DNA of 33,541 bases from Sebaldella sp. (GCA_018058425.1 JAGOZX010000030.1:1-33541); one strand, 5' to 3'. Positions 5,731 through 33,541 are shown, counted from the stretch's first letter. The notes: generated from the letters alone by a model not told the origin. Numbers and translations are program-made.

Positions 5731-8700
5731 ATGATTAAAAATAAAAAGCTGTTAATGTTCTTAATGGCTATAAATGCAGCTTATGGAGCAAATACAGAAA
5801 ATAAAAATTCAGAATTAGATACAAAATACGATAAGTTATACACAAAAATGATAAAAAACATAAATGAAGGAAAATCAAATGACAGTAATTATAAGCTAAT
5901 AGAAAATGTTTTAAATAAAAGAAACAAAGAATTAAATGAGCTGTATTTACAAGGTGATTATATAATAAAGCCAGAATTTTTAGAATGGCAGGTATTTTAT
6001 AATGTTTTTTATAATAATACTAATAGAGGAAAAAGGAACAGCGAAAATCCTGTAAGTTATAGAGGGAATGAAGAGGTTAAAAGTGTTAACCTAGGAATGG
6101 TTATACCTATAAAAAGTGTTGATAAAAAAGACATAAACTTAAATGTAACTTCTGTGACTGAACCTAAAGTAGAGTTTGATATAAAACCTGTATCAAAGGT
6201 AGAGTTGGGGAGTATTGATATTGATTATAATAAGATTGAGTTGCCAGCACCTCCAAACGTTGTAATACAACTTCCGGATGCAACTTATCCGATGAGTCCT
6301 TTTTCTACTGGTAACTGGTCAGGGAATGTAAGATACTCAACTTCTGGATTTAATGTATTTGAAAATTTAAATATAGATACAATAGGGAAAGTAACTTTAA
6401 ATGTAAATAACTCAATAATGGATGTAAATGGTGTAGCGACATATAATAATATAACAGCAGGAGTGAGTGGAATAACATCATCAACACCATATCAGCATAC
6501 TGGTCTTGCAGTGAATTCTACACTTAATACAATAAGTCTAGATGGAGATTATGAAATAAAGGGAGATTGGGATTTAACTATAGCTAACTCAGGGTTGGGT
6601 TTTTTAAGTTATGCACCTTACTTTATTACAAAGGATATTGAACTTATAAATCATGCAAATTTAAATTTAACAGCTCAAGCTGGAGGCTATTTAATAGGGA
6701 CAATTTTAAAGTTAGAAAACACAACACCTAATAATACTGCAAAAGTAGTTTTTGAAAATAGAGGTAAAATAACATTAAATGGAGATAATTATGTATCAGC
6801 AGTTGTTTTAAATCCAACATATTCTAACTCTTTAGAAGCAAGTTATATAAATAATGGAACAATAGAAATAAATACTGATAGAGATAGTGGAGTAATGAAT
6901 TTATATGGAACCGCTATTTCTATGATATTACCAGATCAAACAACTGGAAAAGTTTTTATAAAACCTGGTAATATAAATATAAATGGAAGCCGTAATGGAG
7001 GAATAGTATTAATTACTAAAATATATGATACAACAGCAAAAGAAATTGATTCAAATATAATAATAGATGGTTCAAATGGATTAATTAATATAGGTGGGAA
7101 GAGTAATGTTGGAATTTTTTTAACAAGGAATAATAGCAAGATTGATTCTGATAATGGAATATCAAATTTTAAGAACTTAAATCTATTTTTAAGTGGTGAA
7201 AGTGTAGCAGGTATATCAAGACAGACAGCAACAGATAGTGAAAATGCTAAGGAAATGATAATAGATAGTTCTATAGTTCAAAGTATAGAATTTGGAGCAG
7301 ACTCTAAATTAAGTACATTTTTTAAAACTACAGGTGGAAAGTTAACGATAGATAGCAGTATGAGTGAGGTTTTTGGTCTAATAAATGCAGGGGCACAAAA
7401 CATAATAATAGAAGGAACTAAAAATGGCATTTGGGATGCAAAGGTAGTAAATAATGCTGATATTAACGTTGGATCAGGAGCAAAAGCTTTGACTGTTATG
7501 TCTACATCAAGAGGAGAACTGGAAAATACTGGGAATATAATAAATAATTCTACCAATTACACTAATGAGATTAATGGGGGTGTATTTGGAAGTGTGAGCT
7601 TTATGATGTTTTTCCCTGAAACATCATTAAAAAATACTGGTAACTTAGATATAAATGGAGATAATGCCACTGGAATATATAATGTGGGAATTGTAAAATC
7701 AATAAATGATCATATTTCACTTACTGGAAATAAAGGGACAATAATATACAGTAGATCAGCTATGGCTTATGATGTAAATACAGGACAATATGAATGGTTT
7801 CCTAATGTTAATGATATAACATCTAATAGAATTGAACTTACAGGAAATATGGGGACAGTTTTTGCAGCAAGTGGAACTGATTTTATACTTACACCAGCAA
7901 TTTCAGGTGGAACACTGGAAATAACAGCAAATGGTGAGGAAACTTATGGTATTTATGATACTGTTAGTCAAAAAGGTGCAAGTAGTTTTAAAATAAATGG
8001 TAATGTAAATATGAGTGTAAAAAATGGAGGAATTGCTTTAAGCTATCAAGGTGATGGTGTAGAGCCTACTATGATGAATGCTGCAGAGTACGTTGAAGCT
8101 CTGTTTGATACAACAAATGGAAAAATAAATATAAATGTAGATGAAGAAAGCTATAGATTTTCTTTTTTTGGAAAAAGTGCAAACTTATCAGGGTTATCTG
8201 ATCTTTCTAATTTGAGTTCAAAAGGGATTACATTTACAGGAAGTAGTAAAAATAGATTGACTCTTGGAACTTTATATATAGATATTGATTCTAATCTTGA
8301 TAAAAATAATACAATAGGTAATAAGACATATAGAGATATGAACTTAAACTTAGCAAATATAGATATTGCTCCTAATGTAACAATATCTGGAACAGAGGAT
8401 TCATTATTTGGAATAGCGCAAAATGGAGTAGTTTTAATGAATGCTTACCTTATGCCTATTGAGCTCACAAATAAAGGAACTGTATCTCTAACAGGAAATG
8501 ATAACATAGGAATCTTTGGAAAAAGAGCAACAGTAAGTAATTCAGGTAATATAGAAGTAACTGGAGATAACGGAATAGGAATATTAGGAAGAGCCTCAAA
8601 AGTTATAAATGACGGACGGATAAAAATAGGAAATGAAGGAATAGGAATCTATTCTGAAACATATTTAGCCTCAAATGATGACCCAAATTTTGAAAATAAT

Positions 8701-11700
8701 TCCTCTATTGAAAATTCTGGAAGTATAATTGCAGAAGCAGGGAAAAATGCTATAGGGATCTATTCTGTTATAAATTCTGAAAATGGCATACTAGCAAATA
8801 ATGAAGTAAAATTAAATTCTGGGACAAATATTGATTTAAGTAAAACTATAAGAGGAGTAGGAATCTATTCTGATAAAAGTAATGTAACAGGAACTGGGGA
8901 AATAACTGTAGGAAATAGCGGATATGGAATCTATGTAAAAGATGCTGATGTAAATTTAATGAATCTAGAATTAAATCTCTTTGGAGATGACTCTGTAGGG
9001 ATTTACACAGATGGAACAGCTTCATTTAACGGTTCAGGAACAATAAATATAGATGGTAAAAGAGTAGTAATATTTAATATAACTTCATCTGGAGCATTTA
9101 ATCAGGATTTTAATATAGTATCTTCTGAAGGATCAACATATGTTTTTCAAAACGTAAAGGACTCTGAAATTTTTTCAAATGGAATAATTACTTTAAGTGA
9201 GGGAGGAGTTTATACTTATGGTGTAAATTCAGCAATATCCTTAGGTACAAATTCTAATATGACTTCATATAATAGTGTAACTGACAAGTATGGGTCAAAT
9301 ATAATTGGAATAGCTTTGAGTGGAGGTAACTCTAACGGACTTCCTGTAATAATAAATGGAGAAACCTTAGAGCAAGAAGCTACTAATAAGGGAAAAATGA
9401 CATTTGGAGATAATTCAGCAGGAATATTTGTAGCAGATGGTGCAAGTGCCTTAAATAATGGGAAAATTTCACTTGGAAAGTCGTCAGTAGGAATATATGG
9501 TAAAGGAACAGGAACAAATGTAAGTAATTCTGGAGAGATAAATATAAAAGATGAATCAATAGGATTATTTTTAAACAATGGAGGAAACATAAGTAACTCA
9601 GGAAATATAGAAAGTACAGGAAATAAAACAGTAGGAATTTACTCTGATACTGTGAATAATTCAAATATTATTAATACAGGAAATATTAAATTAACTGGAG
9701 ACAGAACAATAGGGGCATATATAACAGGTACAGGAAATCAGAAGTTTGAAAATACAGGAAATATAATAACAGGTTCTTCGACTGATCACTTGGATCCAAG
9801 TATAGGGATATACAATAATACTTCATCTGGAACTATTTTAAATGAAGGATTGATAAGCGTAAAAGATAATTCTATTGGTATATATAACAAAGGTGGAATG
9901 GTTAAACAAACAAGTGGAAATATACAAGCTTCTGAAAATGGAATAGGAATATACTCAGACTCTGGAACTATACAACTAAATGGTGGAGATATAAAACTAA
10001 CAGGAACTAATGGGATAGGAATATACGGAATAAATGGAGCTAAAATAGATAATAATTCACATATTGATATTTTGACTGGAAATTATGGTATTGTTTTACA
10101 ATCAGGTTCAGAATTAATAAATAGAAAAGCTCAAACTTTAGATAATGATGGCGTATTTATCTATTCAGATAAGGGATCTAAAGTGGTAAATGAATTGGGA
10201 GCAGATATATTAATGAATGGTTCTAGAAACGTTGCCTTCTATATGAATAATGGAGGAAGTCTGATAAACAGCTCTTCAATAACAGGTAATATGGGAGAAT
10301 CAAACATTGGGATATATAATAAAGAGGGAAGCATAGAAAATAGCGGAGATATTAAACTTGGAAACTCTGTAATTATTGATCCAAATGATCCATATGCAAA
10401 TAGCTATTCTGTGGCTATTTACGGTGAGAAAAATTCAAGCTTTAAAAATAGTGGTAACATAGAAATAGGAAAAGCAGGAGTTGGAGTATACACAAGAGCA
10501 GGAGCAAGTGAGACTCTAAATACAGGAAATATAACTTCATTATCAGATTCAGCAATAGGGATATTTGCAGATAATAGTGCTGTTAGAAATGAAGGAAATA
10601 TAACATTATCGGGAGACAAATCAATAGGAATAGCAGGAGAAAGAAATTCTGTGATAACTAATGCAGGAATAATTACAATGAATGGTGAAGAAAACATGGG
10701 TATATATGCGAATTCAAATTCAAAAGTAATTAATACTAATACAGGAATAATTAATATAAATGGTAATAATAGTACAGGAATACAGTTATCAGATGGATCA
10801 GTATTAGAAAACTATGGGAAGATAACTTTAGCTGGAGGATTAACAGGCTCAAAAGATATAGTATCAGGGTCAGGGTCATATACACCACCGAGCATAATAA
10901 ATGCAGGAGTAATAAAAGTAGATGAAAAGTTTGAACTGGATGGACTGACATTGACTATAAAAGTAGATCCTTCAACGATGAGAACACCAACACTTGAAGA
11001 GTTAAAATTAGACGGATATGATCTAGAAGCATTAGATTCAGGGTTTTTATTATCAAATGGAACAAGTATAAAGGCACCAAGTTTTGATTTTGGAGGTAAT
11101 GCAGTAAGAATAGACCCAGCATTTACTCAAGGAACAAATGCAAGAGTGTATAAGTTTGAAAATGTATTTGATCCAAATACTCCAGAAGGAGGCCAAAATA
11201 CAGGAGTAATTTCATTAAAGAGTCTAAGTCTAAGTTTTGATGCAATACCAGTAGTTAATAAGGTAACTGGCGGAGTAGATGTTTGGATGGAAAAGATAAA
11301 TTATGATAATTTTACAGAAGGAACATGGTATGACGGTTTTGCTGGAAATATAGAGTCTAATTATTTAGGCGCTACAGGAAACGCCTTAAAATTATATGAT
11401 AAATTAGATATGATAAAAGATGAAGGAGACTTAGCAAATAGCTTTGAACAGCTTGCAGGAGATACATATGCAAATATAACACAAAGAGAGCAAGACATAA
11501 CAGGGGTATTTAAGAATACACTAGAAATGTTACAAAACTCAGAGAATAATACAAAAGAGAATGTAAAAGTAAGTATAATAGCAGGAAAAGGAACAACAAA
11601 AGAGGACACAACAGGAGTAGTAAATTATGATTATAACACAGTTGGAGCAATGGCTTTACGGGAAGTAGAGAGAAGTTATAAACATAAATTTGGTTATTCA

Positions 11701-12402
11701 TTAGGTTACAGTAGAACAGACTTTGAATTTGATGGAACAAAGGATAAGGATAGAGCAGATACAATTCAAATAGGATTACATAATAAGTATTTACTAGGAG
11801 ACTGGGAAATAAAGAATGATTTATTAGGAAGAGTAAGTTTTCATGATGTAGATAGAAGTGTAAATTGGTATGATGGAAGTAGTTCTAAACTAAATTCAGA
11901 TTATAATGTATATGGAATAAGTTCATTTAATGAAATAGGAAAGAGAATAGATTTAGGGAATAATTTAAAAGTAGTACCTTATGCAGGCTTAGAACTAGGT
12001 TATATGACACACTCAAGTTTTGAAGAGAGTGGAGGAGCAGAGAGTCTGAAAGTAGATAGTAATGATGCTTATAGTATAAAACCAGGAATAGGAGTAAGAT
12101 TAGAGGGAGAAAAGGCATTAGGAGTAACTGAAAATTGGAAACTAAAAGGAAATCTAGGTATAGGTTATGAATATGAGCTTGGAGATATGAATAAGCAAGA
12201 AAAAGCAAGTTTAAAAGAGATAGAGCAGGGATATCATAAGTTAGCCAAAACAGCAGAAGAAAAGGGAAGTTTTAGAACAGCAGGTTCAATAGGATTAGAG
12301 TTAAAAGAAAGATATACAGTATCATTAATAGGAGAATACAGAATAGGGGAAAGTGATCAAGAAGATTATAGAACTGGTATTAATTTAAAAGCTGTATTTT
12401 AA
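5731..12402 (+). CDS. Giant type Va autotransporter (surface protein) with repeat-rich passenger
   Basis: This is a single 2223-residue outer-membrane autotransporter. A short signal peptide (about 1-19, IKNKKLLMFLMAINAAYG) is followed by a fusobacterial autotransporter-associated N-terminal domain (about 25-105), recognised by Lys/Asn-rich helices and the motif PEFLEWQVFYNVFYNN at 81-96. The passenger (about 110-1930) is a parallel beta-helix-like array of Asn/Gly/Ser/Ile-rich repeats with recurring NSGNI, GIGIYG and SIGIY motifs. The C-terminal beta-barrel covers about 1940-2223 and ends INLKAVF with the terminal Phe used by the BAM machinery. AAGGAG lies 5 nt before the ATG. It is monocistronic. 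Adhesion or aggregation is the usual role of such Fusobacterium and Leptotrichia proteins, but no ligand can be inferred. I see no RGD motif, protease triad or frameshift. Confidence 0.92.
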   Translation: MIKNKKLLMFLMAINAAYGANTENKNSELDTKYDKLYTKMIKNINEGKSNDSNYKLIENVLNKRNKELNELYLQGDYIIKPEFLEWQVFYNVFYNNTNRGKRNSENPVSYRGNEEVKSVNLGMVIPIKSVDKKDINLNVTSVTEPKVEFDIKPVSKVELGSIDIDYNKIELPAPPNVVIQLPDATYPMSPFSTGNWSGNVRYSTSGFNVFENLNIDTIGKVTLNVNNSIMDVNGVATYNNITAGVSGITSSTPYQHTGLAVNSTLNTISLDGDYEIKGDWDLTIANSGLGFLSYAPYFITKDIELINHANLNLTAQAGGYLIGTILKLENTTPNNTAKVVFENRGKITLNGDNYVSAVVLNPTYSNSLEASYINNGTIEINTDRDSGVMNLYGTAISMILPDQTTGKVFIKPGNININGSRNGGIVLITKIYDTTAKEIDSNIIIDGSNGLINIGGKSNVGIFLTRNNSKIDSDNGISNFKNLNLFLSGESVAGISRQTATDSENAKEMIIDSSIVQSIEFGADSKLSTFFKTTGGKLTIDSSMSEVFGLINAGAQNIIIEGTKNGIWDAKVVNNADINVGSGAKALTVMSTSRGELENTGNIINNSTNYTNEINGGVFGSVSFMMFFPETSLKNTGNLDINGDNATGIYNVGIVKSINDHISLTGNKGTIIYSRSAMAYDVNTGQYEWFPNVNDITSNRIELTGNMGTVFAASGTDFILTPAISGGTLEITANGEETYGIYDTVSQKGASSFKINGNVNMSVKNGGIALSYQGDGVEPTMMNAAEYVEALFDTTNGKININVDEESYRFSFFGKSANLSGLSDLSNLSSKGITFTGSSKNRLTLGTLYIDIDSNLDKNNTIGNKTYRDMNLNLANIDIAPNVTISGTEDSLFGIAQNGVVLMNAYLMPIELTNKGTVSLTGNDNIGIFGKRATVSNSGNIEVTGDNGIGILGRASKVINDGRIKIGNEGIGIYSETYLASNDDPNFENNSSIENSGSIIAEAGKNAIGIYSVINSENGILANNEVKLNSGTNIDLSKTIRGVGIYSDKSNVTGTGEITVGNSGYGIYVKDADVNLMNLELNLFGDDSVGIYTDGTASFNGSGTINIDGKRVVIFNITSSGAFNQDFNIVSSEGSTYVFQNVKDSEIFSNGIITLSEGGVYTYGVNSAISLGTNSNMTSYNSVTDKYGSNIIGIALSGGNSNGLPVIINGETLEQEATNKGKMTFGDNSAGIFVADGASALNNGKISLGKSSVGIYGKGTGTNVSNSGEINIKDESIGLFLNNGGNISNSGNIESTGNKTVGIYSDTVNNSNIINTGNIKLTGDRTIGAYITGTGNQKFENTGNIITGSSTDHLDPSIGIYNNTSSGTILNEGLISVKDNSIGIYNKGGMVKQTSGNIQASENGIGIYSDSGTIQLNGGDIKLTGTNGIGIYGINGAKIDNNSHIDILTGNYGIVLQSGSELINRKAQTLDNDGVFIYSDKGSKVVNELGADILMNGSRNVAFYMNNGGSLINSSSITGNMGESNIGIYNKEGSIENSGDIKLGNSVIIDPNDPYANSYSVAIYGEKNSSFKNSGNIEIGKAGVGVYTRAGASETLNTGNITSLSDSAIGIFADNSAVRNEGNITLSGDKSIGIAGERNSVITNAGIITMNGEENMGIYANSNSKVINTNTGIININGNNSTGIQLSDGSVLENYGKITLAGGLTGSKDIVSGSGSYTPPSIINAGVIKVDEKFELDGLTLTIKVDPSTMRTPTLEELKLDGYDLEALDSGFLLSNGTSIKAPSFDFGGNAVRIDPAFTQGTNARVYKFENVFDPNTPEGGQNTGVISLKSLSLSFDAIPVVNKVTGGVDVWMEKINYDNFTEGTWYDGFAGNIESNYLGATGNALKLYDKLDMIKDEGDLANSFEQLAGDTYANITQREQDITGVFKNTLEMLQNSENNTKENVKVSIIAGKGTTKEDTTGVVNYDYNTVGAMALREVERSYKHKFGYSLGYSRTDFEFDGTKDKDRADTIQIGLHNKYLLGDWEIKNDLLGRVSFHDVDRSVNWYDGSSSKLNSDYNVYGISSFNEIGKRIDLGNNLKVVPYAGLELGYMTHSSFEESGGAESLKVDSNDAYSIKPGIGVRLEGEKALGVTENWKLKGNLGIGYEYELGDMNKQEKASLKEIEQGYHKLAKTAEEKGSFRTAGSIGLELKERYTVSLIGEYRIGESDQEDYRTGINLKAVF
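8461..10860 (+). repeat. Protein-level repeat array in the autotransporter passenger
   Basis: Residues about 911-1710 consist of imperfect units of roughly 20-35 residues. Each has an N-S/T-G-x-I strand followed by a (S/N/G)-x-G-I-(Y/F/G) turn, for example NIGIFGKRATVSNSGNIEV and SVGIYGKGTGTNVSNSGEI. Related but less regular units extend upstream to residue about 200. The DNA units have diverged, so this is a protein-level repeat that predicts a long beta-solenoid, not recent tandem duplication. Confidence 0.75.
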
Positions 12403-22918: not shown

Positions 22919-23773
22919 TTATTTTATAATATTTAAACTTTTTAAAACTTCAAAAGTAATTGTTTTTCTTAAATTAAGAAAGTCTTTGTTTTTATTTGGT
23001 TCATCCTGCCAAAGTCTTGTTGCAAAAAAGTAAACATTATCCTTAGTTTCTACATATCCCACAAACCAGCCAATATCTAATGTATTTACATCAGAAAAAC
23101 CAGTTTTTGCTCTCAGAACATAGTCATCAGTTTTTTCATTTATCATGATTTCTTTTACAATAGTGTAAGTTCTTTTTGAAAGAGGATACTTTTCTTCATA
23201 CAAACCAGTTAAAAAATTTATTTGTTCCACTGGAGAGATAGTCAGAGTATTATCTAACCAAAAATAGTCCTCTTTTCCTGATAAATTTTGATTCCCATAA
23301 TTAAATTCTTTTAAGTATTTTTCAAATTTTTCTTTTCCAATTCTACGAGCCATCTCTTGATAAAACCAAACAGTGGAATTTTTATAGGCATCTTTTAAAT
23401 CAGTATCAGCATTGTGAGCCTCATAAGTTCTTTTTACTCCATCCCATTTTAAAACTTCGAATTCATCCTTAACAGCATTTTCCTCTATAGTGATCAACGA
23501 ACTAGGTATTTTAAAAGTAGAAGCTGGTAGGGTTCTTCTTTTAGAATCAGTTACATCACTATAAATCCATTTTTTATTTTTATAGTCATAAATAGTGATA
23601 CTTCCTTGAGTATTTGAATCATTAAAATACTTTTGCAAATTTACTTCTTTATCAATACTAGTATTATTGGTAACGTTTTTAGTGTCTTTACCAACAGAGC
23701 TTTTCGTATCAGACTGACTTTTACACATTACTACTGACAAGCTTAATGCTATAATTAATAGAATTTTTTTCAT
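22919..23773 (-). CDS. bla: Class D (OXA-type) beta-lactamase
   Basis: This serine beta-lactamase of 284 residues is exported to the periplasm or its membrane. Class D motifs are all present: Ser85-Thr-Phe-Lys88 (STFK), Ser133-Thr-Val135 (SxV), Tyr159-Gly-Asn161 (YGN), Trp172 before the LTISPVEQ segment, and Lys223-Thr-Gly225 (KTG). The signal peptide MKKILLIIALSLSVVMC ends at Cys17, so it may be a lipoprotein, though Met at -1 is atypical for a lipobox. AAGGAG lies 6 nt upstream of the ATG. The linker after residue 20 is long and Ser/Lys/Asn-rich. The gene is divergent from blaI-blaR1 and its promoter carries two BlaI-type operators. Hydrolysis spectrum cannot be read from the sequence. Confidence 0.95.
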   Translation of the reverse strand: MKKILLIIALSLSVVMCKSQSDTKSSVGKDTKNVTNNTSIDKEVNLQKYFNDSNTQGSITIYDYKNKKWIYSDVTDSKRRTLPASTFKIPSSLITIEENAVKDEFEVLKWDGVKRTYEAHNADTDLKDAYKNSTVWFYQEMARRIGKEKFEKYLKEFNYGNQNLSGKEDYFWLDNTLTISPVEQINFLTGLYEEKYPLSKRTYTIVKEIMINEKTDDYVLRAKTGFSDVNTLDIGWFVGYVETKDNVYFFATRLWQDEPNKNKDFLNLRKTITFEVLKSLNIIK

Positions 23774-23879
23774 ATATTACTCCTTATTTTCTTTTTTTAC
23801 TAGCGTATTATTTTAGCACAATTTATGTAATAAAATTCATTGTTTTATAGGTTTTAATCTATAATAAAACTTTAAATAC

Positions 23880-23889
23880 TACACATGTA
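23880..23889. promoter_or_regulatory. BlaI operator O1
   Basis: TACACATGTA fits the TACA-N2-TGTA core known for BlaI/MecI operators. It lies just downstream of the predicted start of the beta-lactamase transcript, where a bound repressor would block transcription. Confidence 0.8.
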
Positions 23890-23898
23890 ATTGTTTAT

Positions 23899-23927
23899 AT
23901 ATTACACTTGTAGGATTTAATTGTCAA
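23899..23927 (-). promoter_or_regulatory. Promoter of the class D beta-lactamase gene
   Basis: On the minus strand TTGACA (23927-23922) and TAATAT (23904-23899) are separated by 17 bp. The spacer contains operator O2. Transcription would start near 23892 with a 5' leader of about 119 nt. Confidence 0.7.
23903..23912. promoter_or_regulatory. BlaI operator O2
   Basis: TACACTTGTA is a second TACA-N2-TGTA site, 23 bp centre to centre from O1. It lies in the spacer of the beta-lactamase promoter and overlaps the edge of its -10 box. Confidence 0.8.
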
Positions 23928-23944
23928 GAATTATTTTAAAGAGA

Positions 23945-23972
23945 TTGAAATTTTTCAGATATATGATATAAT
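23945..23972 (+). promoter_or_regulatory. Promoter of the blaI-blaR1 operon
   Basis: TTGAAA at 23945-23950 and extended -10 TGA-TATAAT (hexamer 23967-23972) are 16 bp apart. The ATG at 23971 lies inside this -10, so translation must begin downstream at 24007. Confidence 0.75.
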
Positions 23973-23979
23973 GAACTAT

Positions 23980-23989
23980 TACAAACGTA
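23980..23989. promoter_or_regulatory. BlaI operator O3 (one mismatch)
   Basis: TACAAACGTA differs from TACA-N2-TGTA at one base. It covers the predicted transcription start of blaI-blaR1, which fits autorepression. Confidence 0.6.
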
Positions 23990-24006
23990 AGAAATGGAGA
24001 TTTTAT

Positions 24007-24393
24007 ATGAAGAATTTATTTACTATTTCAGAAGCAGAATATCAAGTTATGAAAATCATATGGGCAAAAGCACCTATAAGTACTAATGAAGTAGTTGAAA
24101 CACTTATAAAAACAAGTGAGTGGAGTCCAAAAACAATACAAACACTTCTTTCAAGGTTGGTGAAAAAGGGTGTTCTTGATCATAAAAAAGAGAGTAGAAA
24201 ATTTGTATATATGCCGCTTGTTAGAGAAGAAGAGTATTTAGAGCAGGAAAGTGATACATTTTTAAATAGATTTTATGAAGGAACTTTGAATTCTATGGTT
24301 GTTAATTTTCTAGAACAAGATAAATTAACAAAAGACGATATTGATGAACTAAAAAGAATTTTAGATGAAAAACTTACAAAAGGTGGAAAGTAA
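24007..24393 (+). CDS. blaI: BlaI/MecI family penicillinase repressor
   Basis: This 128-residue winged-helix repressor has the recognition-helix region WSPKTIQTLLSRLVKKG at 39-55, highly typical of BlaI/MecI. Asn100-Phe101 in VVNFLEQ matches the position at which BlaR1/MecR1-type proteases cut BlaI (Asn101-Phe102 in S. aureus), so the induction mechanism appears complete. The start is ATG 24007, with GGAG 7 nt upstream. A longer frame from 23971 is excluded because it begins within the -10 box. It precedes blaR1 by 1 bp and faces the divergent beta-lactamase gene. Confidence 0.93.
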   Translation: MKNLFTISEAEYQVMKIIWAKAPISTNEVVETLIKTSEWSPKTIQTLLSRLVKKGVLDHKKESRKFVYMPLVREEEYLEQESDTFLNRFYEGTLNSMVVNFLEQDKLTKDDIDELKRILDEKLTKGGK

Positions 24394-24394
24394 T

Positions 24395-26188
24395 ATGATT
24401 GATTTAGTATTTACACGATTTTTAATCAGCTCTTTTACAATATCTTCTGTTATAGCTGTAATTTTAATTATAAAGAAAGTATTTGATAAGCATATAACAG
24501 CAAAATGGCAGAAAAATATAGGGATATTATTCCTTATTATGTTATTTGTACCTTTTATACCAAATAAGTTTTTTAATTTTGGCAATTTATATAACTTATC
24601 ATTTAAAAATATAAATATTGATAAGTCTATAAGTATGGATTTTTTTACAAAAAATACTAAAAGTGATTTATTTTTAGATTCAGGATGGATGCAGGATTTT
24701 AGCGTATCTGTAAATCATTTTATACCAAAATATTTGATGTTTTTATTGATTACAATATGGTTAATAGGTGTATTTGTTTGTGTAATTATTACAATAAGAT
24801 GCAACTATAATCTTAAGTTTATAAAAAAATCTACTTGTCCTATAAAAAATATAGAAATTGAAGAATTATTTGAAAAGTGTAAGAATAGGCTAAATATTAC
24901 AGGAAATATTATATTAGGCGAGTCAGCTTTTACAAAAACTCCCACAGCAATGGGAATTTTTAAACCTTATGTGATATTACCAGCTAAAATTTATAAACAG
25001 ATATCTAAAAATGATATGGAATATATATTTCTTCATGAATTGAATCATTATAAAAGCAGAGATATTTTAATTAATTATATAATGTGCGTATTTCAAATAA
25101 TTTATTGGTTTAATCCTTTAATTTGGGCAGTCTTTAGACAAATGAGATTAGAGCGAGAAATTGCCTGTGATAATTCTGTATTAAAGTTACTAGATGAAAG
25201 CTGTTATATCGATTATGGAATGACAATTATTAATTTTGTGGAAAAAATATCACATTCATCTAATATGAGTTTAACTACAGGTATTAGTGGTTCAAAACAA
25301 CAAATAAAAAAGAGGATTGAAAAGATAGCAGTTTTTACAAAGGAGCCAAAAAGGCTAAAAATAAAGAGTGTTTTCATTTTTACTGTTTTGAGTTGCCTTG
25401 TTTTAAGCCAAGTTCCTTCTATTTCGATTATTGATAATGGTAGTGAAAAATATAATTTTAGAGGAAACCAAGTGATATATGAGGATTTAAGTCCTTATTT
25501 TAGAAAATTTAAAGGGAGTTTTGTACTTTATGACTTACAAGCTGATCAATATTTTATTTATAATAAAGATAAAAGTACCACAAGAATATCGCCCGACTCG
25601 ACTTATAAAATATTTGATGCATTAATAGCCTTGGAATCAGGTATAATACAAAATGAAAACTCGATTTTAAAATGGAATGGAAAAAGCTATTCTTATGAAT
25701 CTTGGAATAAAGATCAGAACTTGGAATCAGCAGTTAAAAATTCTGTAAATTGGTATTTTCAAGATATTGATAAACGGATTGGAAAGAAAAAACTTCGTTC
25801 TTTTTATAAACAAATGGATTATGGTAATTATAATATATCTGGTGGAATATCTGATTATTGGATGGAATCTTCACTGCGAATATCTCCTGTGGAGCAAGTA
25901 CAGCTCTTAAAGAGATTCTATATGAATGACATGGAGTTTAAAAAAGAAAATATAAATAAGGTAAAAGAGGTTTTAAAAGTATCTGAAAAGAATGGATCAG
26001 TTTTATCAGGGAAAACAGGAAGTGGGTCTATTAATGGAAAGAATACTAATGGCTGGTTTATTGGATATGTAGAGAATAAAGGCCGTACTTATATTTTTGC
26101 AACAAATGTACAAGACTCAGATGATGCAAAAGGGAGTGTTGCAACTAATATAACTCTTGAAATTCTAAAAGATAAAAATATTTATTAA
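24395..26188 (+). CDS. blaR1: BlaR1-type beta-lactam sensor/transducer
   Basis: This 597-residue membrane sensor combines an M56 peptidase with a class D-like penicillin-binding sensor domain. Hydrophobic segments lie at the N-terminus, near 125-145, and around 325-345. The zinc protease motif His214-Glu-Leu-Asn-His218 (HExxH) sits in the cytoplasmic part. The sensor domain (about 360-597) has Ser402-Thr-Tyr-Lys405 (SxxK, acylated by beta-lactam), Ser450-Val-Asn452, YGNYNISG, ISPVEQ and Lys540-Thr-Gly542. It is clearly a paralogue of the beta-lactamase encoded next to it. The start is ATG 24395, 1 bp after the blaI stop, with AGGTGG upstream. Upstream in-frame codons overlap blaI and are not needed. 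Confidence 0.93.
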   Translation: MIDLVFTRFLISSFTISSVIAVILIIKKVFDKHITAKWQKNIGILFLIMLFVPFIPNKFFNFGNLYNLSFKNINIDKSISMDFFTKNTKSDLFLDSGWMQDFSVSVNHFIPKYLMFLLITIWLIGVFVCVIITIRCNYNLKFIKKSTCPIKNIEIEELFEKCKNRLNITGNIILGESAFTKTPTAMGIFKPYVILPAKIYKQISKNDMEYIFLHELNHYKSRDILINYIMCVFQIIYWFNPLIWAVFRQMRLEREIACDNSVLKLLDESCYIDYGMTIINFVEKISHSSNMSLTTGISGSKQQIKKRIEKIAVFTKEPKRLKIKSVFIFTVLSCLVLSQVPSISIIDNGSEKYNFRGNQVIYEDLSPYFRKFKGSFVLYDLQADQYFIYNKDKSTTRISPDSTYKIFDALIALESGIIQNENSILKWNGKSYSYESWNKDQNLESAVKNSVNWYFQDIDKRIGKKKLRSFYKQMDYGNYNISGGISDYWMESSLRISPVEQVQLLKRFYMNDMEFKKENINKVKEVLKVSEKNGSVLSGKTGSGSINGKNTNGWFIGYVENKGRTYIFATNVQDSDDAKGSVATNITLEILKDKNIY

Positions 26189-27062: not shown

Positions 27063-28142
27063 TTATTTTCTAACAGCTTCTTTTCTATAAATTTTAATGT
27101 CATACTCTTTATCGGAAAGTTCAAGAATTTCAATTCGTAAATTTTTAGTATCAAAAAATAATTTTTTTTCAATATTTATCATATAAAATTTTTTATTAAA
27201 ATGACTGTTTATAATCTTATCTTCAAATATTTCTGTTTCTTTTATTCTTTCCATTTCATTAAATAGAATTTTTTGTAAAATAATTATATTATCTGTATTC
27301 TTTTTTATATGAGAAATAAGGACAGCATTCTCTAATAAATGATTTTTTATTATATCATCTAAATTATCTTCTATTGTTTGCCCTTTAGTTAGGTTTTTAA
27401 TCCCTTTAGTAATGGTTGCTTTGGAATACTTAGTTAGAAGTTCAGTTACTTTAGAGATAGCAGTATTAAAGTTATTATACTGAGAATTTTTTTCTAACAT
27501 TTCTATTGCAAATTTTGAGTTAGCATAAAAATCTTTATTAGTAATAATAAAACGAAGACTAACAATTTTATTATTTATATTTTCACCAGACTTTATCTTA
27601 TCATAAAATACAAGGTATGGAGAGTTTTCTTCTATATCATTAGACATATTTTTTAGAATAAATCTTTCAAAGTCATAGAATCTAGGATAGGAATCTATAT
27701 CTAGTACTTCTTTTAAACTTTCTATATCAATATCAATTTTTTGGCTATCTTTTATATTTTGACAAAATTTCAGATAAAACCTAAGTGTATATTTTTCTTG
27801 TAGGGTAGTGAGAGTCATTAAGTCAATAGAATTATTGATTTGTGCATTTTTTTTTAGGATGTGACCAAAATTTAGACTAATAATATTACTAGTAGACTCA
27901 TATCCATAAAATAAATTATAGGAATGAATTTCATCATTTATATCAATTTTTATACTTTTAGTTTGGAATTTGTCTAAAAAATTGTAAAGTTCACTCTTAT
28001 TTACATCTAATAAGTTTAAAAGCTCTGGAATAGTGTATTTTTCAATTTTTTTATGTATAAAATTTTTGATTAATATTTTTTCATTATTAGTAGGGAAGTT
28101 AGAAAAGATTATTTTATAATTATTAAAAGAAAAAAAGTTCAT
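27063..28142 (-). CDS. Plasmid-type replication initiator-like protein (Rep_3 superfamily)
   Basis: This 359-residue protein resembles the Rep_3/RepB initiators of iteron plasmids. The segment LQEKYTLRFYLKFCQNIKD (about 113-131), followed by a helix LKEVLDIDSYPRFYDFERFI and the strand-rich ENSPYLVFYDKIKSGENIN, matches the winged-helix domain of that family. The C-terminal third has no motif that I know. I place the start at the ATG at 28142, with GGAG 8 nt upstream. An in-frame ATG at 28220 lies 9 bp downstream of the -10, so it is less likely. No iterons, AT-rich tandem sites or partition genes are seen next to it. It may be a domesticated chromosomal copy or a remnant of a mobile replicon. 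Function is inferred; confidence in the family is moderate. Confidence 0.65.
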   Translation of the reverse strand: MNFFSFNNYKIIFSNFPTNNEKILIKNFIHKKIEKYTIPELLNLLDVNKSELYNFLDKFQTKSIKIDINDEIHSYNLFYGYESTSNIISLNFGHILKKNAQINNSIDLMTLTTLQEKYTLRFYLKFCQNIKDSQKIDIDIESLKEVLDIDSYPRFYDFERFILKNMSNDIEENSPYLVFYDKIKSGENINNKIVSLRFIITNKDFYANSKFAIEMLEKNSQYNNFNTAISKVTELLTKYSKATITKGIKNLTKGQTIEDNLDDIIKNHLLENAVLISHIKKNTDNIIILQKILFNEMERIKETEIFEDKIINSHFNKKFYMINIEKKLFFDTKNLRIEILELSDKEYDIKIYRKEAVRK

Positions 28143-28228
28143 TAAATCAACTCCTTTTTTAATTGAGAAAACAGTTTTTTTAGATAAAATACACGAAAAT
28201 GAATGTTTTTTATTTTCCAATTTTAAAT

Positions 28229-28408: not shown

Positions 28409-29722
28409 ATGAGTAAATTTATGACTCTATTAGAGGAAAAAGTAGCACCAGTTGTAAATAAAATAGGATCACAAAGGCATTTGAGAGCAGTAAGAAATGG
28501 GATTATTTCCATGCTTCCATTAACAATAGTAGGATCATTTTTTGTAATATTTTTAAATGTTCCTATTCCAGGATATGAAGAATTAATCGCACCAATAAAG
28601 GCTTCATTAGATATACCTTTTAGATATACAGTAGGTATAATGTCTATATATGTGGCGTTTGGAATAGCTTTTCAGTTAGCTAAAAGCTACAATTTAGATG
28701 AATTAACATCAGGTTTTTTAGCAGTTTCAGGATTTTTAATATCATCTGTAGTTCCTATAAATGTAGGGAAAGGTGTAGAGGGAGTAATAGCAGGAGGAAG
28801 ATGGATGCCTATAGCTAAATTAAGCGCATCTAGTTTATTTGGCGCTATATTAGCAGCAATAATATCTGTAGAAATATATAAGTTTTTTAGAGATAAAAAT
28901 ATTGTTATAAAAATGCCTGATGGAGTTCCACCAGCAGTAGCGAACTCGTTTGCCGCATTATTTCCAGCAATTGCAGTTATATTACTTTTTTGGATAATTA
29001 GACATATATTAGGGTTTGATATAAGTGAAGCATTAGCCACATTATTATCTCCTTTAAAAGGAATCTTAGCAGGTAATTCGTTACTAGGTGGATTGCTCAC
29101 AGTATTTTTAATACTATTTTTTTGGGTCATGGGAATTCACGGGCCTGCTATTTTAGGACCAATTGTTAGACCAATATGGGATACTACAATAGCAGAAAAT
29201 ATGGATGCCTTCACAGCAAGTGGAAATGCACATGCTCTGCCAAATATATTTACAGAACAATTTTTACAATGGTTTTTATGGATAGGTGGATCAGGAATGA
29301 CACTACCACTGGTATTTCTATTTATGATATCAAAGTCAAGATTCTTAAAGGATTTAGGGAAGTTATCATTATTACCAGGAATTTTTAATATAAATGAACC
29401 AGTTATCTTTGGAGCACCTATAGTAATGAACCCTATTTTAGCAATACCTTTTATAATAGTGCCAGTAATATGTACAATAATATCATATATTTTAACTAGA
29501 GCTGGAATGGTACCTATGATGATGGCTAAACTGCCATTTACAGTTCCAGCACCAATAGGAGCATTGATTAGTACTAACTGGAGTATAATGGCATGTATAT
29601 TAGTATTTATTAACTTTTTTATAGGTTTAGTAATATATTATCCATTTTTCAGAATATATGAAAAACAATTATTAGATCAAGAAAAGGAAGCGCAAATGAC
29701 TAATGAGGAAAATATAATATAA
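28409..29722 (+). CDS. PTS sugar transporter EIIC subunit, cellobiose/lactose family
   Basis: This 437-residue membrane permease has about ten hydrophobic segments. The family motifs MGIHGPAILGPIVRPIWDT and FNINEPVIFGAPIVMNP are typical of lactose/cellobiose-type EIIC (CelB-like). It needs separate EIIA and EIIB proteins, which are not in the window and must be encoded elsewhere. The start is ATG 28409, with GGGAGG 10 nt upstream; an in-frame ATG at 28370 has no ribosome binding site. It is the first gene of a cluster with a MupG-like protein and a kinase, so its substrate is probably a phosphorylated glycoside. Confidence 0.92.
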   Translation: MSKFMTLLEEKVAPVVNKIGSQRHLRAVRNGIISMLPLTIVGSFFVIFLNVPIPGYEELIAPIKASLDIPFRYTVGIMSIYVAFGIAFQLAKSYNLDELTSGFLAVSGFLISSVVPINVGKGVEGVIAGGRWMPIAKLSASSLFGAILAAIISVEIYKFFRDKNIVIKMPDGVPPAVANSFAALFPAIAVILLFWIIRHILGFDISEALATLLSPLKGILAGNSLLGGLLTVFLILFFWVMGIHGPAILGPIVRPIWDTTIAENMDAFTASGNAHALPNIFTEQFLQWFLWIGGSGMTLPLVFLFMISKSRFLKDLGKLSLLPGIFNINEPVIFGAPIVMNPILAIPFIIVPVICTIISYILTRAGMVPMMMAKLPFTVPAPIGALISTNWSIMACILVFINFFIGLVIYYPFFRIYEKQLLDQEKEAQMTNEENII

Positions 29723-29727
29723 AAAAT

Positions 29728-29789
29728 AAAGGGTTGTGTCTTAATAATATTTTCAAATAAAATTTTGAAAATTATAAAGGCACAACTTT
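29728..29789 (+). terminator. Long intercistronic hairpin between EIIC and the MupG-like gene
   Basis: An outer stem of AAAG..GTTGTGTCTT with AAGGCACAACTTT (one bulge, one G-U) encloses an inner AT stem formed by TATTTTCAAA and TTTTGAAAATTATA. A short T-rich stretch follows. It could be a leaky terminator, or it could adjust the amount of EIIC relative to the downstream enzymes by mRNA stability. Confidence 0.5.
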
Positions 29790-29828
29790 GTTTAAAAAAT
29801 ATATCTTTATAATTTATAGGAGGAAAAT

Positions 29829-30917
29829 ATGAAAAGAAAACTTGGGATTTCAATATACCCTGAAAAGTCAACTATTGAGAAAGATAAAGAGTATATAGAA
29901 AAAGCTGCTAAATACGGTTTTACAAAAATATTTACCTGCCTATTATCAGTAGATAAGCCAATAGAAGATATAAAGCGTGAATTTATAGAAATAATAAACT
30001 ATGCATCAGGTAAAAATATGGAGGTTATACTTGATATTTCTCCAGCAGTATTTGATAAGTTAGGTATAAGTTATGATGATTTGAGTTTTTTCAAAGAACT
30101 AGGCGCTGCTGGAATAAGACTTGATTTAGGATTTGATGGCTTAAAAGAAACACAGCTGACATATGATAAAAATGACTTAAAGATAGAGCTAAATATGAGT
30201 AATGATATAGATTATTTAAATAATATTTTAAGTTATACACCAAATAAAGATAATTTAATAGGAAGTCATAACTTTTATCCACAAAGATACACAGGACTTG
30301 AATATAATTATTTTATAAAATGTAGTGAGAGATTTAAAAAACAGGGACTACGAACTTCAGCATTTATTAATTCAAAAAGTGCAACATTTGGACCTTGGAG
30401 TATTAATGATGGTCTTTGTACTTTGGAGATGCACAGAGATTTGGGAATAACTGTTCAAGCTAAACACTTGTGGGCAACAGGGCTGATAGATGATGTTGTA
30501 ATAGGAAATGCTTATGCTAGTGATAATGAATTAAAGGCATTAGGTGAATTAGATACTTATCAGCTGGAACTAGAGATAGAGTTTTTTGATGGTGTATCAG
30601 AGATAGAAAAACATATACTTTTAAATGAAAAGCATATTAGAAGGGGCGATATAAGCGAGTATATGATAAGATCAACTGAGGTTAGAAAAAAACATGTTAA
30701 TTCAGATATTTCTAAAAGAGATTATGATACTCAAAATGTGGGAGATGTAGTAATTGGGAATAATAATTTTGGTAAATATAAAGGGGAAACACAGATAGTC
30801 ATAAAAGAAATGCCTTTAGATGAAAGAAAAAATAGGGTTGCTAAAGTAGTAAGTGAAGAAATATTTCTATTAGGTTTTATAGGTTCATGGATAAATTTTA
30901 AATTTAAACAAAAATAA
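29829..30917 (+). CDS. MupG/DUF871 family 6-phospho-glycosidase-like protein
   Basis: This 362-residue TIM-barrel protein belongs to the DUF871/MupG family. MupG of S. aureus is a 6-phospho-N-acetylmuramidase that cleaves MurNAc-6P-GlcNAc. Visible features are the N-terminal LGISIYPEKSTIEKDKEYI, IRLDLGFDG, the SHNFYPQRYTGLEYNYF segment and FINSKSATFGPWSINDGLCT, with a beta-barrel C-terminus (about 240-362). AGGAGG lies 8 nt before the ATG. Neither murQ nor a MurNAc-type EIIBC is nearby and the partners are acid-sugar enzymes, so the substrate may differ from MurNAc-6P-GlcNAc. The family assignment is firm; the substrate is open. Confidence 0.88.
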   Translation: MKRKLGISIYPEKSTIEKDKEYIEKAAKYGFTKIFTCLLSVDKPIEDIKREFIEIINYASGKNMEVILDISPAVFDKLGISYDDLSFFKELGAAGIRLDLGFDGLKETQLTYDKNDLKIELNMSNDIDYLNNILSYTPNKDNLIGSHNFYPQRYTGLEYNYFIKCSERFKKQGLRTSAFINSKSATFGPWSINDGLCTLEMHRDLGITVQAKHLWATGLIDDVVIGNAYASDNELKALGELDTYQLELEIEFFDGVSEIEKHILLNEKHIRRGDISEYMIRSTEVRKKHVNSDISKRDYDTQNVGDVVIGNNNFGKYKGETQIVIKEMPLDERKNRVAKVVSEEIFLLGFIGSWINFKFKQK

Positions 30918-30936
30918 AAGTAAAATAAAAAGGCAG

Positions 30937-31959
30937 ATGATGAGAGTGAGAGTTTTAGCTTTTGGAGAAGTAATGATGAGGTGTAGTGTTCCAAATAAAA
31001 AAAAGTTATTTCAATCAAATACATTAGAGTATATGTTTTCAGGAACAGGTTTAAATGTAATGGGACAGCTTAAAAAATTTGGGATAGAAACAGAACTTCT
31101 GACTAAGTTACCTGAGAATCCTTTGGGAGAAGCAGCAATTTCACATATTGAAAGTTTAGGGATAAAAACAAATAAAATTTCTAAAGGTGGGGAATTTATA
31201 GGAATATACTTTTTGGAAGAGGGTTTTGGAAAAAGAGCTTCGGTAGTCACTTATACAGATAGAAGAGGAAGTTCTTTTTGTAAGTCTAAACTTAAAGATT
31301 ATGATTTTGATGAAATATTAAAAGATGTAAAAATGCTTCATTTATGTGGGATTAGCTTAGCTATGAATGAAGCTGTAAGGGAAATAATGATAGCTTTAGC
31401 TAAAAAAGCAAAAGAAATAGGAGTTTTAGTAGTTTTTGACTGTAATTATAGAGAAAAACTTTGGAAAAAGAGATATGAAGAGGCTATTCCAAATTATAAA
31501 AAAATAATAGAATATTCGGATATTGTTTTTGCAAGTGAAAAAGATATTAGTAATATTTTTGGCATAAAAAGTGAAAAGGAAAATGTAAGTATTGAAGAAA
31601 TTTTAAAGGACTTAATTCCAGAATTTGCAAGTAAGTATAATTTAAAACTTGTAGCTGGAACTATTAGAAAAAATAAAACTTTAAATAATCAAACAATAAA
31701 AGGATTTGCATATAGGAATAACGAAATATTTTTTTCAGACTACAGTGAATTAGAAATTTATGATAGAATTGGTGGAGGGGACGCCTATACTTCAGGAATA
31801 CTTTATAAGTATCTAAAGAATTCTAGTTTGAAAAACATGGTTAATTTTGCAGTTGCAAGTTCTGTTTTAGGGCATACAACTTATGGGGATACGCCGATAT
31901 CTACATTAAGTGAGGTAGAGGAATTGTTAAGCGGGAATTTTAGTGAGTTGAAAAGGTAG
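30937..31959 (+). CDS. PfkB family sugar kinase (2-keto-3-deoxygluconate kinase-like)
   Basis: This 340-residue ribokinase/PfkB kinase opens with VLAFGEVMMRCSVPN and SGTGLNVMGQLKKFGIETEL. It ends with the ATP/anion-hole motif RIGGGDAYTSGILY, whose Asp is the catalytic base. The FGEVMMR and NVMGQLKKFG start and the length resemble KDG kinases. ATG 30937 and ATG 30940 are adjacent; the AAGG site at 30930-30933 fits the second slightly better. It is 19 bp downstream of the MupG-like gene in the same direction. The substrate is inferred, not proven: KDG, or a hexose or aldonate, would all fit. Confidence 0.88.
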   Translation: MMRVRVLAFGEVMMRCSVPNKKKLFQSNTLEYMFSGTGLNVMGQLKKFGIETELLTKLPENPLGEAAISHIESLGIKTNKISKGGEFIGIYFLEEGFGKRASVVTYTDRRGSSFCKSKLKDYDFDEILKDVKMLHLCGISLAMNEAVREIMIALAKKAKEIGVLVVFDCNYREKLWKKRYEEAIPNYKKIIEYSDIVFASEKDISNIFGIKSEKENVSIEEILKDLIPEFASKYNLKLVAGTIRKNKTLNNQTIKGFAYRNNEIFFSDYSELEIYDRIGGGDAYTSGILYKYLKNSSLKNMVNFAVASSVLGHTTYGDTPISTLSEVEELLSGNFSELKR

Positions 31960-32163
31960 GGTTTGTTGTAACTTTTAAGAGTGATGTTATGAGGGTTGGT
32001 TGTTTTGAGTAGGAATACTTTAGAGATTCTCACGTCACTGCGTTCCTCAGAATGACAGAGAGTTAGAGTTCATTATAACTTTTAGAAGGGTATTATGAAG
32101 TCTGGTGGGTTTTGAGTTGGTGTTCGTTAGAGATTCTCACGTCACTATGTTCCTCAGAATGAC
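31960..32163. repeat. Dispersed palindromic repeat, tandem pair
   Basis: Two direct copies of the 32-bp core lie at 32025-32056 and 32132-32163, 107 bp apart, each within a similar lead-in (TAACTTTTA-AG through GGT-GTTTTGAGT). There is no inverted copy here, unlike the three other blocks. The pair fills the gap between the kinase and the amidohydrolase; the last copy ends 20 bp before the ribosome binding site of the amidohydrolase. Confidence 0.85.
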
Positions 32164-32196
32164 AAATATAAATGGAAATTGGCGGAGGTAGTTGAA

Positions 32197-33315
32197 ATGC
32201 TAATAAAGAATGGTAAGTTAATAGATATAAATAATGGGTATGATTTTATCCAAAAAGATATAAGAGTAGAAAATGGAATAATTAAAGAAATTGGAGAAAA
32301 TCTGAAAAAAGATGAGAATGAAGAAGTTTTAGATATAAAAGGAAATATTATTACTGCTGGGTTTATAGATATACATACACATGTATATCATGGAGAAACG
32401 GCTATAGGAATAGATCCAGATAAGGTAGGAGTGGAATTAGGGGTAACATCTGTAATTGATGCTGGAACCTCAGGAGCGGACACATTTGAAGATTTTTATA
32501 ATAGAATAATAAAAAATTCTAAAACAAAAGTCTTTGCATTTTTGAATATAGCATCTCTAGGGCTGAAAACACTCAATGAGCTTAATGATATGTCAAATAT
32601 TGATTTTGAAAAAATAAAAAAAATAGTGGAAAAGTACAAAGGAACTATTGTGGGAATAAAAGCCAGAGCATCTGCATCAGTTGTGGGTGAAAATGGCATA
32701 GCACCAATAAAAAAAGCAAAAGAAATAGCTAAGGAATTGGGAATCCCAATAATGGTTCATATAGGTAATGCTCCACCAAAAGTAGAGGAAGTTTTAAATC
32801 TTCTAGAAAAAGGAGATATTGTAACTCATTGTTATCATAATAAGGAAAATAATTTAGTTAAAGATATAGGAATGCTCGAAGAAGCACTGGAAGCTAAAAA
32901 AAGAGGTGTTTTATTTGATATAGGGCATGGAAATTCAAGTTTTTCTTTCGATATTGGAAAAAAGGCAATTAAAGATGGGTTTAGCCCAGACTTTTTAAGT
33001 ACTGATATATATGATAAGAATATTGAAGAACCAGTAAAAAGTCAAATAAACACTTTAAATAAGATGCTTTATTTAGGTTTAAATTTAGAAGAGTGCATTT
33101 CTAAGTTAACTAAAGAACCTGCGGAAAAACTTTCTTTGGGGAATATAGGAGAGATAAAAATAGGATTCAAAGCTGATTTTACAGTATTTGAATTAATAGA
33201 TGAGCAAATAGAATTAATAGATTCTGTAAATAAAACTGTAAAGCAAAAGCCATATGTAAATGGTAAATATGCTATTGTTAATGGAATAGTATACAAATCA
33301 AAAGGCGGGAATTAG
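32197..33315 (+). CDS. Amidohydrolase/deacetylase family metallohydrolase
   Basis: This 372-residue protein of the amidohydrolase superfamily is related to the EF_0837 group. The metal motif DIHTHVYHG (HxH) is near 65, and the likely carboxylated Lys is in IVGIKARASASVVGENG (about 160). IMVHIGNAPP and VTHCYHN give two more metal His, and LSTDIYD gives the catalytic Asp. Start: ATG 32197 has GGAGG 8 nt upstream. A TTG at 32179 in frame would put this ribosome binding site inside the gene. It is followed after 24 bp by a DgaE-like gene, a pairing known for this family. It probably removes an acyl group from an N-acyl amino-sugar acid; this is inference. Confidence 0.88.
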   Translation: MLIKNGKLIDINNGYDFIQKDIRVENGIIKEIGENLKKDENEEVLDIKGNIITAGFIDIHTHVYHGETAIGIDPDKVGVELGVTSVIDAGTSGADTFEDFYNRIIKNSKTKVFAFLNIASLGLKTLNELNDMSNIDFEKIKKIVEKYKGTIVGIKARASASVVGENGIAPIKKAKEIAKELGIPIMVHIGNAPPKVEEVLNLLEKGDIVTHCYHNKENNLVKDIGMLEEALEAKKRGVLFDIGHGNSSFSFDIGKKAIKDGFSPDFLSTDIYDKNIEEPVKSQINTLNKMLYLGLNLEECISKLTKEPAEKLSLGNIGEIKIGFKADFTVFELIDEQIELIDSVNKTVKQKPYVNGKYAIVNGIVYKSKGGN

Positions 33316-33339
33316 TTTTTATACATTAAGGAGGCAAGT

Positions 33340-33541
33340 GTGAACATATATGAAAAATTAGGACTACAAAAAGTAATAAATGCAAGTGGCCGAATGACCA
33401 TATTAGGAGTATCGGTATTATCAGAAGAGTGTGCAGAAAGCTTTAAGGAGGGAAGTCAGAACTTTGTGGTGATAGAAGATCTGATGGAGAAAGCAGGAGA
33501 AATAATATCTAGATATACAGGGGGAGAAGACAGCTGTGTAG
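33340..33541 (+). CDS. DgaE-like PLP-dependent ammonia-lyase, N-terminal part (runs off right edge)
   Basis: A GTG at 33340 with AAGGAGG 5 nt upstream begins MNIYEKLGLQKVINASGRMT, then TILGVSVLSEECAESFKEG, and runs open to the edge for 67 codons. This N-terminus matches the SelA-like, PLP-dependent D-glucosaminate-6-phosphate ammonia-lyase (DgaE) family. The PLP lysine is outside the window. It follows the amidohydrolase by 24 bp. It would turn an amino-sugar acid phosphate into a 2-keto-3-deoxy acid. A glycolytic-type KDPG aldolase (DgaF) gene is expected next. Confidence 0.75.
   Translation, partial: MNIYEKLGLQKVINASGRMTILGVSVLSEECAESFKEGSQNFVVIEDLMEKAGEIISRYTGGEDSCV

Follow-up and report, generated by a model that had tools for sequence, protein, structure and literature searches.

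Gene content and conservation of the operon

The window, i.e., the whole stretch of 33,541 nucleotides analysed here, is a complete contig (C122; GCA_018058425.1 JAGOZX010000030.1:1-33541) and one of 173 contigs in the 3.24-Mb genome of Sebaldella sp., the gene content and relatives of which suggest the Leptotrichiaceae. Five genes lie on its plus strand up to the contig end, encoding an EIIC of the phosphotransferase system (PTS), a MupG-like protein of glycoside hydrolase family GH170 (DUF871), a PfkB kinase, an EF_0837-like deacetylase and the beginning of DgaE (Table 1). We propose, with a probability of about 0.5, that this operon serves the uptake and breakdown of a beta-glycoside with N-acetylglucosaminate (GlcNAc1A) as aglycone. 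The most likely candidate is diacetylchitobionate (GlcNAc-GlcNAc1A, with N-acetylglucosamine, GlcNAc, at the non-reducing end), which is the C1-oxidised disaccharide of chitin. An earlier note on this DNA, made from the sequence alone, had already described the five genes as a one-direction cluster, with the hypothesis that a PTS-imported phospho-disaccharide is cleaved by the MupG-like enzyme and one half, an N-acyl amino-sugar acid, is deacylated and then deaminated. The five genes are indeed there and share a strand, and the comparisons below support this outline.

The EIIC matches PTS_EIIC (3.6e-58) and belongs to the lactose/cellobiose family by TIGR00410 (408 bits, cut-off 236); its start codon is the ATG at 28409. 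The GH170 protein exceeds the curated cut-offs of both MupG_N (1.8e-98) and MupG_C (1.2e-34). The kinase matches PfkB (5.2e-30), and its best solved relatives are an unnamed PfkB kinase (3ktn) and a 2-keto-3-deoxygluconate (KDG) kinase (2afb). The deacetylase reaches 432 bits with NF006689, above the cut-off, and 389 bits with the EF_0837 model, below the cut-off of 432 for that model; aligned to EF_0837 (2ICS), it retains the H-x-H, Lys, His, His and Asp residues of the metal site. Its start is most likely the ATG at 32197 behind GGCGGAGG, where the relatives start too, displacing the mechanically chosen TTG at 32179. The N-terminus of DgaE is recognised by its profile (1.8e-21), and dgaE is incomplete because the window is a whole contig that ends inside this gene. 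The beginning of another dgaE, which over 216 bp is 97.7% identical to that of the window and has a different promoter context, lies on the minus strand at the end of contig C73 (L032:1-216), and this near-identical copy is probably the reason why the assembly broke inside dgaE. The gap between kinase and deacetylase measures 220 bp here and holds a dispersed repeat twice; in sister genomes it is about 120 bp long and lacks the repeat. This intergenic repeat (CTCACGTCACT..GTTCCTCAGAATGACA) occurs at positions 17613, 17819, 32029 and 32136 of the window, the two copies in the gap being 107 bp apart.

Table 1. Features of the operon and its divergent neighbour, in window coordinates
Feature	Position	Strand	Basis or remark
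Rep3-like protein, RepE-type double winged helix with C-terminal extension of ~150 aa; putative local regulator	27063..28142	-	PF21205 3.7e-8
Operator-like repeat 1, ACGAAAA (TTTTCGT toward the Rep-like gene)	28193..28199		conserved in four genomes
Operator-like repeat 2, ACGAAAA	28285..28291		conserved in four genomes
PTS EIIC, lactose/cellobiose/diacetylchitobiose family	28409..29722	+	TIGR00410 above cut-off; PDB 3QNQ; clade SH-aLRT 99
GH170 (DUF871/MupG-like) 6-phosphoglycosidase (predicted), dga-associated subfamily	29829..30917	+	MupG_N/MupG_C; clade 100/100
PfkB sugar-acid kinase, KDG-kinase type	30937..31959	+	profile and solved-relative matches
Spacer with two dispersed-repeat copies	31960..32178		breaks the gene row only here among compared genomes
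EF_0837-like amidohydrolase-superfamily deacetylase	32197..33315	+	NF006689 above cut-off; alignment to 2ICS
dgaE start (N-terminus)	33340..33541	+	TIGR01437/NF047797; full-length orthologue L030 458 bits

The gene set is common to Fusobacteriota, Bacilli, Clostridia and Erysipelotrichia, and it is complete, including dgaF, in two genomes of the same genus and in Clostridium, C. difficile (on a plasmid), Companilactobacillus, Longibaculum, Enterococcus and Niallia, the last of which has the core on a megaplasmid. Both same-genus genomes (G003 and G001; loci L030 and L031) show the order EIIC-GH170-kinase-deacetylase-DgaE-DgaF. In L030, DgaE (458 bits, TIGR01437) and DgaF (372 bits, NF047796) each exceed the curated cut-off, and DgaE falls under the stricter cut-off of NF047797. 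The order is EIIC-small protein-GH170-deacetylase-DgaE-DgaF-kinase, with a GntR gene adjoining, in Clostridium sartagoforme, Companilactobacillus halodurans and Longibaculum muris, and EIIB-EIIA-GntR-EIIC-GH170-deacetylase-DgaE-DgaF-kinase on the C. difficile plasmid; E. faecalis has a core like that of C. difficile, with SFCGS/DUF4312/4311/4310 genes ahead of it. Such a recurrence across taxa is not chance. The earlier note had recommended a survey of co-occurrence and a look to the right of the window: the set is co-conserved in other genomes and dgaF adjoins in the relatives, while the EIIA and EIIB genes it also hoped for stand in the C. difficile operon and not in that of the window genus. 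In a Fusobacteriales metagenome-assembled genome from termite gut (L029, 9936-10140), the GH170 gene is almost wholly gone between EIIC and kinase, by deletion or assembly error.

The GH170 and EIIC subfamilies and the candidate substrate

MupG, a GH170 enzyme, acts on the 6-phospho-disaccharide of N-acetylmuramic acid and GlcNAc (MurNAc-6P-GlcNAc; PMC6262408), and Pfam labels the window enzyme MupG-like, which would fit MurNAc-GlcNAc recycling by MupG proper. We rejected this reading, the chance of which is very slight. Of the three DUF871 genes in the genome, the first lies in the window, the second on C12 next to an EIIC gene of the cellobiose family, and the third on C130 (L034), where it forms a mupG-murQ-murP row with murQ and a gene for a MurP-like EIIBC; the earlier note was right that murQ is missing from the cluster. 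The window protein shares about 31% identity with the MupG of C130 and falls into a different clade, with neither the murQ/murP context nor the placement of a MupG proper.

A tree of 47 proteins places the 13 GH170s associated with dga genes in a single clade (100/100), which adjoins the chitobiose-type GH170s and is distant from the MurNAc-type MupG enzymes. The chitobiose-type GH170 genes sit with those for EIIA, EIIB and EIIC, often GH4, and a protein of about 300 amino acids (a BadF-type ATPase in one record). The EIICs divide as the GH170s do, and those of dga operons, including that of the window, form one clade (SH-aLRT 99). The 13 loci were recognised by gene context, and the B. cereus protein of known structure, 1X7F, placed by its sequence, groups with them at up to 72% identity. 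At twelve positions, most of them in the C-terminal domain, the dga type has a fixed or nearly fixed residue that differs from those of the chitobiose type. K106, R271, K287 (12 of 13), K316 and K334 are fixed in the dga type and E/D310 is lost, resulting in a net positive shift, and some of the charged positions adjoin H269, R272, D274, R281 and Y317, which are invariant in all sampled GH170s. Judged from the alignment, this gain of charge is as expected for binding the extra carboxylate of an aldonate.

One transcript might also serve two unrelated functions, i.e., a system for chitobiose-6P or cellobiose-6P and an independent route for N-acetylglucosaminate, since each module occurs alone as well. 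We consider this improbable, because GH170 and EIIC of the dga type form dedicated clades (at 13 loci chosen by context). The DgaE proteins that accompany them are polyphyletic, with at least four label changes forced by supported branches of the DgaE tree, while GH170 and EIIC form one clade each; the glycoside-uptake module and the acid module have therefore probably been joined more than once, which likewise speaks against unrelated functions.

Lytic polysaccharide monooxygenases (LPMOs) produce oxidised chitin ends. Among 399 Bacilli genomes, DgaE and LPMO_10 occur together in 31, DgaE only in 28, LPMO only in 17 and neither in 323 (odds ratio 21, p 4e-18). In genomes under 5 Mb, the cassette is found in 9 of 23 LPMO genomes and in 14 of roughly 230-320 others, a denominator that is estimated, and the association remains with each total assumed (p from 3e-5 to 3e-6). 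By locus type, LPMO genomes hold 16 of 23 DUF431x loci and 13 of 29 loci without a PTS. Genes for ChbG-like proteins (chitin disaccharide deacetylase) adjoin two cassettes, one scoring above and one below the model cut-off, and NagA for the GlcNAc-6P half is encoded on C120. GH130-like genes adjoin several cassettes. Fragments of hyaluronan or chondroitin, which the earlier note had listed for growth tests, were rejected as unlikely substrates because their acid is a uronate; they contain no N-acetyl aldonate.

The same logic would hold for another beta-glycoside of an N-acetyl-hexosaminate, for instance one in which the non-reducing sugar is Gal, Man, Glc or MurNAc, or in which the acid is an epimer. 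The aglycone genes define the acid half only, GH170 spans glycosides of MurNAc-6P (PMC6262408) and probably GlcNAc-6P (PMC12791066), and Fusobacteriota and several carriers are without LPMO. Such a substrate is nevertheless unlikely, as the nearest GH170 and EIIC relatives sit in chitobiose-type operons and the cassette is statistically linked to LPMOs.

The kinase and the order of steps

DgaE was found in 59 of the 399 Bacilli genomes, at 60 places, and the neighbourhoods were read. The kinase counts cover 67 loci with a readable DgaE from Bacilli and other sources, which are not phylogenetically independent; L082, L100, L102 and L044, where picking the longest open reading frame missed DgaE, and L029, which ends before DgaE, are outside the counts (the annotated DgaE of L044 was included in the DgaE tree). 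All 24 loci with SFCGS/DUF4310-4312 genes have the deacetylase and none has the kinase. Both enzymes are present at all 29 loci without a linked PTS, which include a divergent outlier (L136) and several loci with a homologue of the gluconate:H+ symporter. The kinase is also found at each of the 12 loci with EIIC and GH170, two of which have DUF431x genes too, and at L105, where a MurNAc-type mupG adjoins the cassette. The single mannose-PTS locus lacks both kinase and deacetylase. In total, the kinase is present at 42 loci, where the acid is expected unphosphorylated, and absent from 25 with a transporter of the phosphorylating type.

Judging by MupG and ChbE, the phosphate would go to the non-reducing sugar, leaving the released acid unphosphorylated. 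The kinase accompanies the cassette wherever the acid is expected in the cytosol in unphosphorylated form, so that kinase and lyase most likely belong to one branch, and the earlier note was probably mistaken in having the kinase phosphorylate the other half. As to the order within this branch, DgaE of this operon in G003 is identical (365/365 residues, 98.8% of the DNA) to that of a second operon, in which dgaE-dgaF is followed by mannose-PTS genes and the substrate should be glucosaminate-6P. Furthermore, the three arginines that a model of Salmonella DGL places around the phosphate of the substrate (R301, R332 and R346; PMC9529869) recur in DgaE of every type, the outlier L136 excepted. The identity of the two enzymes and the kept arginines suggest that the kinase acts before DgaE, which we regard as somewhat favoured.

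With the same substrate, the enzyme could also be a true KDG kinase that acts after DgaE, along the series GlcNAc1A, glucosaminate (GlcN1A), KDG and KDG-6-phosphate (KDPG). Among its solved relatives with a named function, a KDG kinase is the closest, and this order has been proven in vitro for the ong pathway (PMC9537276). The identity to the DgaE of the mannose-PTS operon, the retained arginines and the gene order in the window genus argue against it, and we give it a real chance at clearly less than even odds. A kinase acting on KDG after DgaE, as in Pseudoalteromonas, would leave the remaining scheme standing.

The route that we infer for Sebaldella, in its substrate, in every reaction and in the order of kinase and deacetylase, would begin with EIIC, which, with EIIA and EIIB from elsewhere, would import diacetylchitobionate and phosphorylate O6 of the non-reducing sugar. 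The GH170 enzyme would split the phospho-disaccharide into GlcNAc-6P, which would pass to NagA/NagB, and free GlcNAc1A. This acid would be phosphorylated by the PfkB kinase, lose acetate through the deacetylase and lose ammonia through DgaE, giving 2-keto-3-deoxygluconate-6P, which DgaF (KDGP aldolase) would cleave into pyruvate and glyceraldehyde-3P. The gene order of the two same-genus genomes would match this order of steps.

Several points weigh against this route. The cleavage by GH170 of a glycoside with an aldonic-acid aglycone is proposed by analogy, the operon of the window genus has no EIIA or EIIB gene, and four PTS_IIA genes are found elsewhere in the genome. The link between LPMO and cassette is confounded by phylogeny and genome size: above 5 Mb, p ranges from 1.0 to 1e-7, depending on the assumed number of large genomes, and only 2 of 5 Bacilli loci of the EIIC-GH170 type are in LPMO genomes. 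That SFCGS/DUF431x is a phosphorylating transporter is an assumption, and the phosphate-binding role of the DGL arginines comes from manual docking. LPMO_10 was found neither in 25 Fusobacteriota genomes nor in four operon-carrying genomes, and an outside source of chitobionate would therefore be needed in Fusobacteriota. LPMOs of insects or fungi in the termite gut are possible suppliers, speculatively so for the window genome.

Rep-like neighbours and known systems

The operon faces a divergent gene for a Rep-like protein, orthologues of which (63-65% identical) occupy the same place in three relatives. A profile built from 12 members aligns with RepE (1REP/2Z9O) across both winged helices, at about 1e-10, placing them in the RepE type; an AlphaFold model (two sequences) has a mean pLDDT of 52, too poor to add evidence. 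All nine Rep-like genes of the genome (window 27063-28142, C21, C40, two on C73, C95, C148, C120 and C123) are divergent to sugar operons, eight facing PTS operons and one the second dgaE. In relatives, 20 of 20 examined genes (L249-L268) are divergent to PTS or related sugar operons. This sample consists of all G003 hits save the one beside this operon (nine) and eleven picked from larger contigs, avoiding true plasmid copies, and several of its members are orthologues of one another. PTS families were confirmed for representative neighbours. One gene (L253) faces dgaE-dgaF and then mannose-PTS genes, L258/L259 is flanked on both sides by PTS genes, and three genes (L252, L267 and L268) face SFCGS/DUF431x operons. 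In these three, of Fusobacterium or Sebaldella type, the operons encode SFCGS/DUF4312/4311 transporters, two beside an EF_0837-type deacetylase.

Upstream of the Rep-like genes, TTTTCGT occurs 38 times toward the gene and 4 times in the opposite direction, against a mean of 4.5 and a maximum of 10 for both together in dinucleotide shuffles. The motif is often paired at 60-99 bp, and at exactly 92 bp in the window and three relatives. A plasmid location with an iteron-bearing origin was not seen for the sampled copies: these adjoin PTS operons, many are on contigs the size of a chromosome, and copies of the motif are few. From sequence comparison, the Rep-like proteins may possibly be an undescribed family of sugar-operon regulators derived from plasmid initiators; no description of Rep-like regulators in Fusobacteria was found in the literature searched. 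Elsewhere in the window, a class D (OXA-type) beta-lactamase gene on the minus strand lies opposite genes for a BlaI-like regulator and a BlaR1-like sensor on the plus strand (22919-26188), and positions 5731-12402 encode an autotransporter-like protein of 2223 amino acids with a long repetitive passenger region.

Taken together, and only tentatively, anaerobic gut bacteria without LPMO may scavenge the LPMO-made C1-oxidised chitin disaccharide through a PTS, a specialised GH170 subfamily and a 6-kinase for (N-acetyl)glucosaminate, with domesticated initiator proteins as local regulators of PTS operons in Fusobacteriota. The operon predicts use of the disaccharide by Bacillota (including Enterococcus and the C. 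difficile plasmid) and Fusobacteriota, and it suggests a function, open to testing, for a GH170 subfamily with a solved structure (1X7F). It also offers a rule for reading related operons, in which the kinase is expected only where the acid arrives unphosphorylated, and the Rep-like neighbours hint at sugar-operon regulators of a class not recognised so far. The route would combine known separate steps in a way for which we found no description: in the literature searched, a full catabolic route for oxidised chitin ends was described only in marine Gammaproteobacteria, and no PTS route for chitobionate or GlcNAc1A was found. The earlier note had regarded the whole combination, including the role of the MupG-like enzyme, as undescribed; this holds for the combined route and not for GH170 with a cellobiose-type PTS, known in Lacticaseibacillus paracasei (PMC12791066).

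Among known systems, the EF_0837/EF_0839 neighbourhood of Enterococcus faecalis has the same gene set, including GH170 and kinase, and adds SFCGS/DUF4312/4311/4310; no established function for it was found in the literature searched. The mupG-murQ-murP system of Staphylococcus aureus (PMC6262408) shares the GH170 family and a PTS-imported 6-phospho-disaccharide and differs in its MurNAc substrate, the etherase MurQ and a distant clade. The Salmonella dga operon for D-glucosaminate (PMC9529869) shares DgaE and DgaF, both present in the sister locus L030, with the N-terminus of DgaE in the window. Its mannose-family PTS, however, phosphorylates the monosaccharide acid, without glycosidase, deacetylase or kinase, whereas the EIIC of the window is of the cellobiose type. 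In the ong pathway of Pseudoalteromonas prydzensis, proven for LPMO products, GlcNAc1A is likewise deacetylated, deaminated and phosphorylated to KDG-6P, the kinase acting last (PMC9537276, PMC12017989). That pathway relies on OngA, a GH20 enzyme of the periplasm, together with an SSS transporter, OngB (D-aminoacylase type, subtype V, with Cys/His/His) and OngC (D-amino-acid deaminase type), and these enzyme families, GH20 among them, are absent from the cluster, which has a PTS with a cytosolic GH170, an EF_0837-type deacetylase, a SelA-related DgaE and an aldolase inside the operon. The chb system of L. paracasei shares the cellobiose-type PTS and a GH170 enzyme that is needed, on genetic evidence, for the use of the chitin disaccharide N,N'-diacetylchitobiose (PMC12791066), but its aglycone is GlcNAc and the acid cassette is absent.

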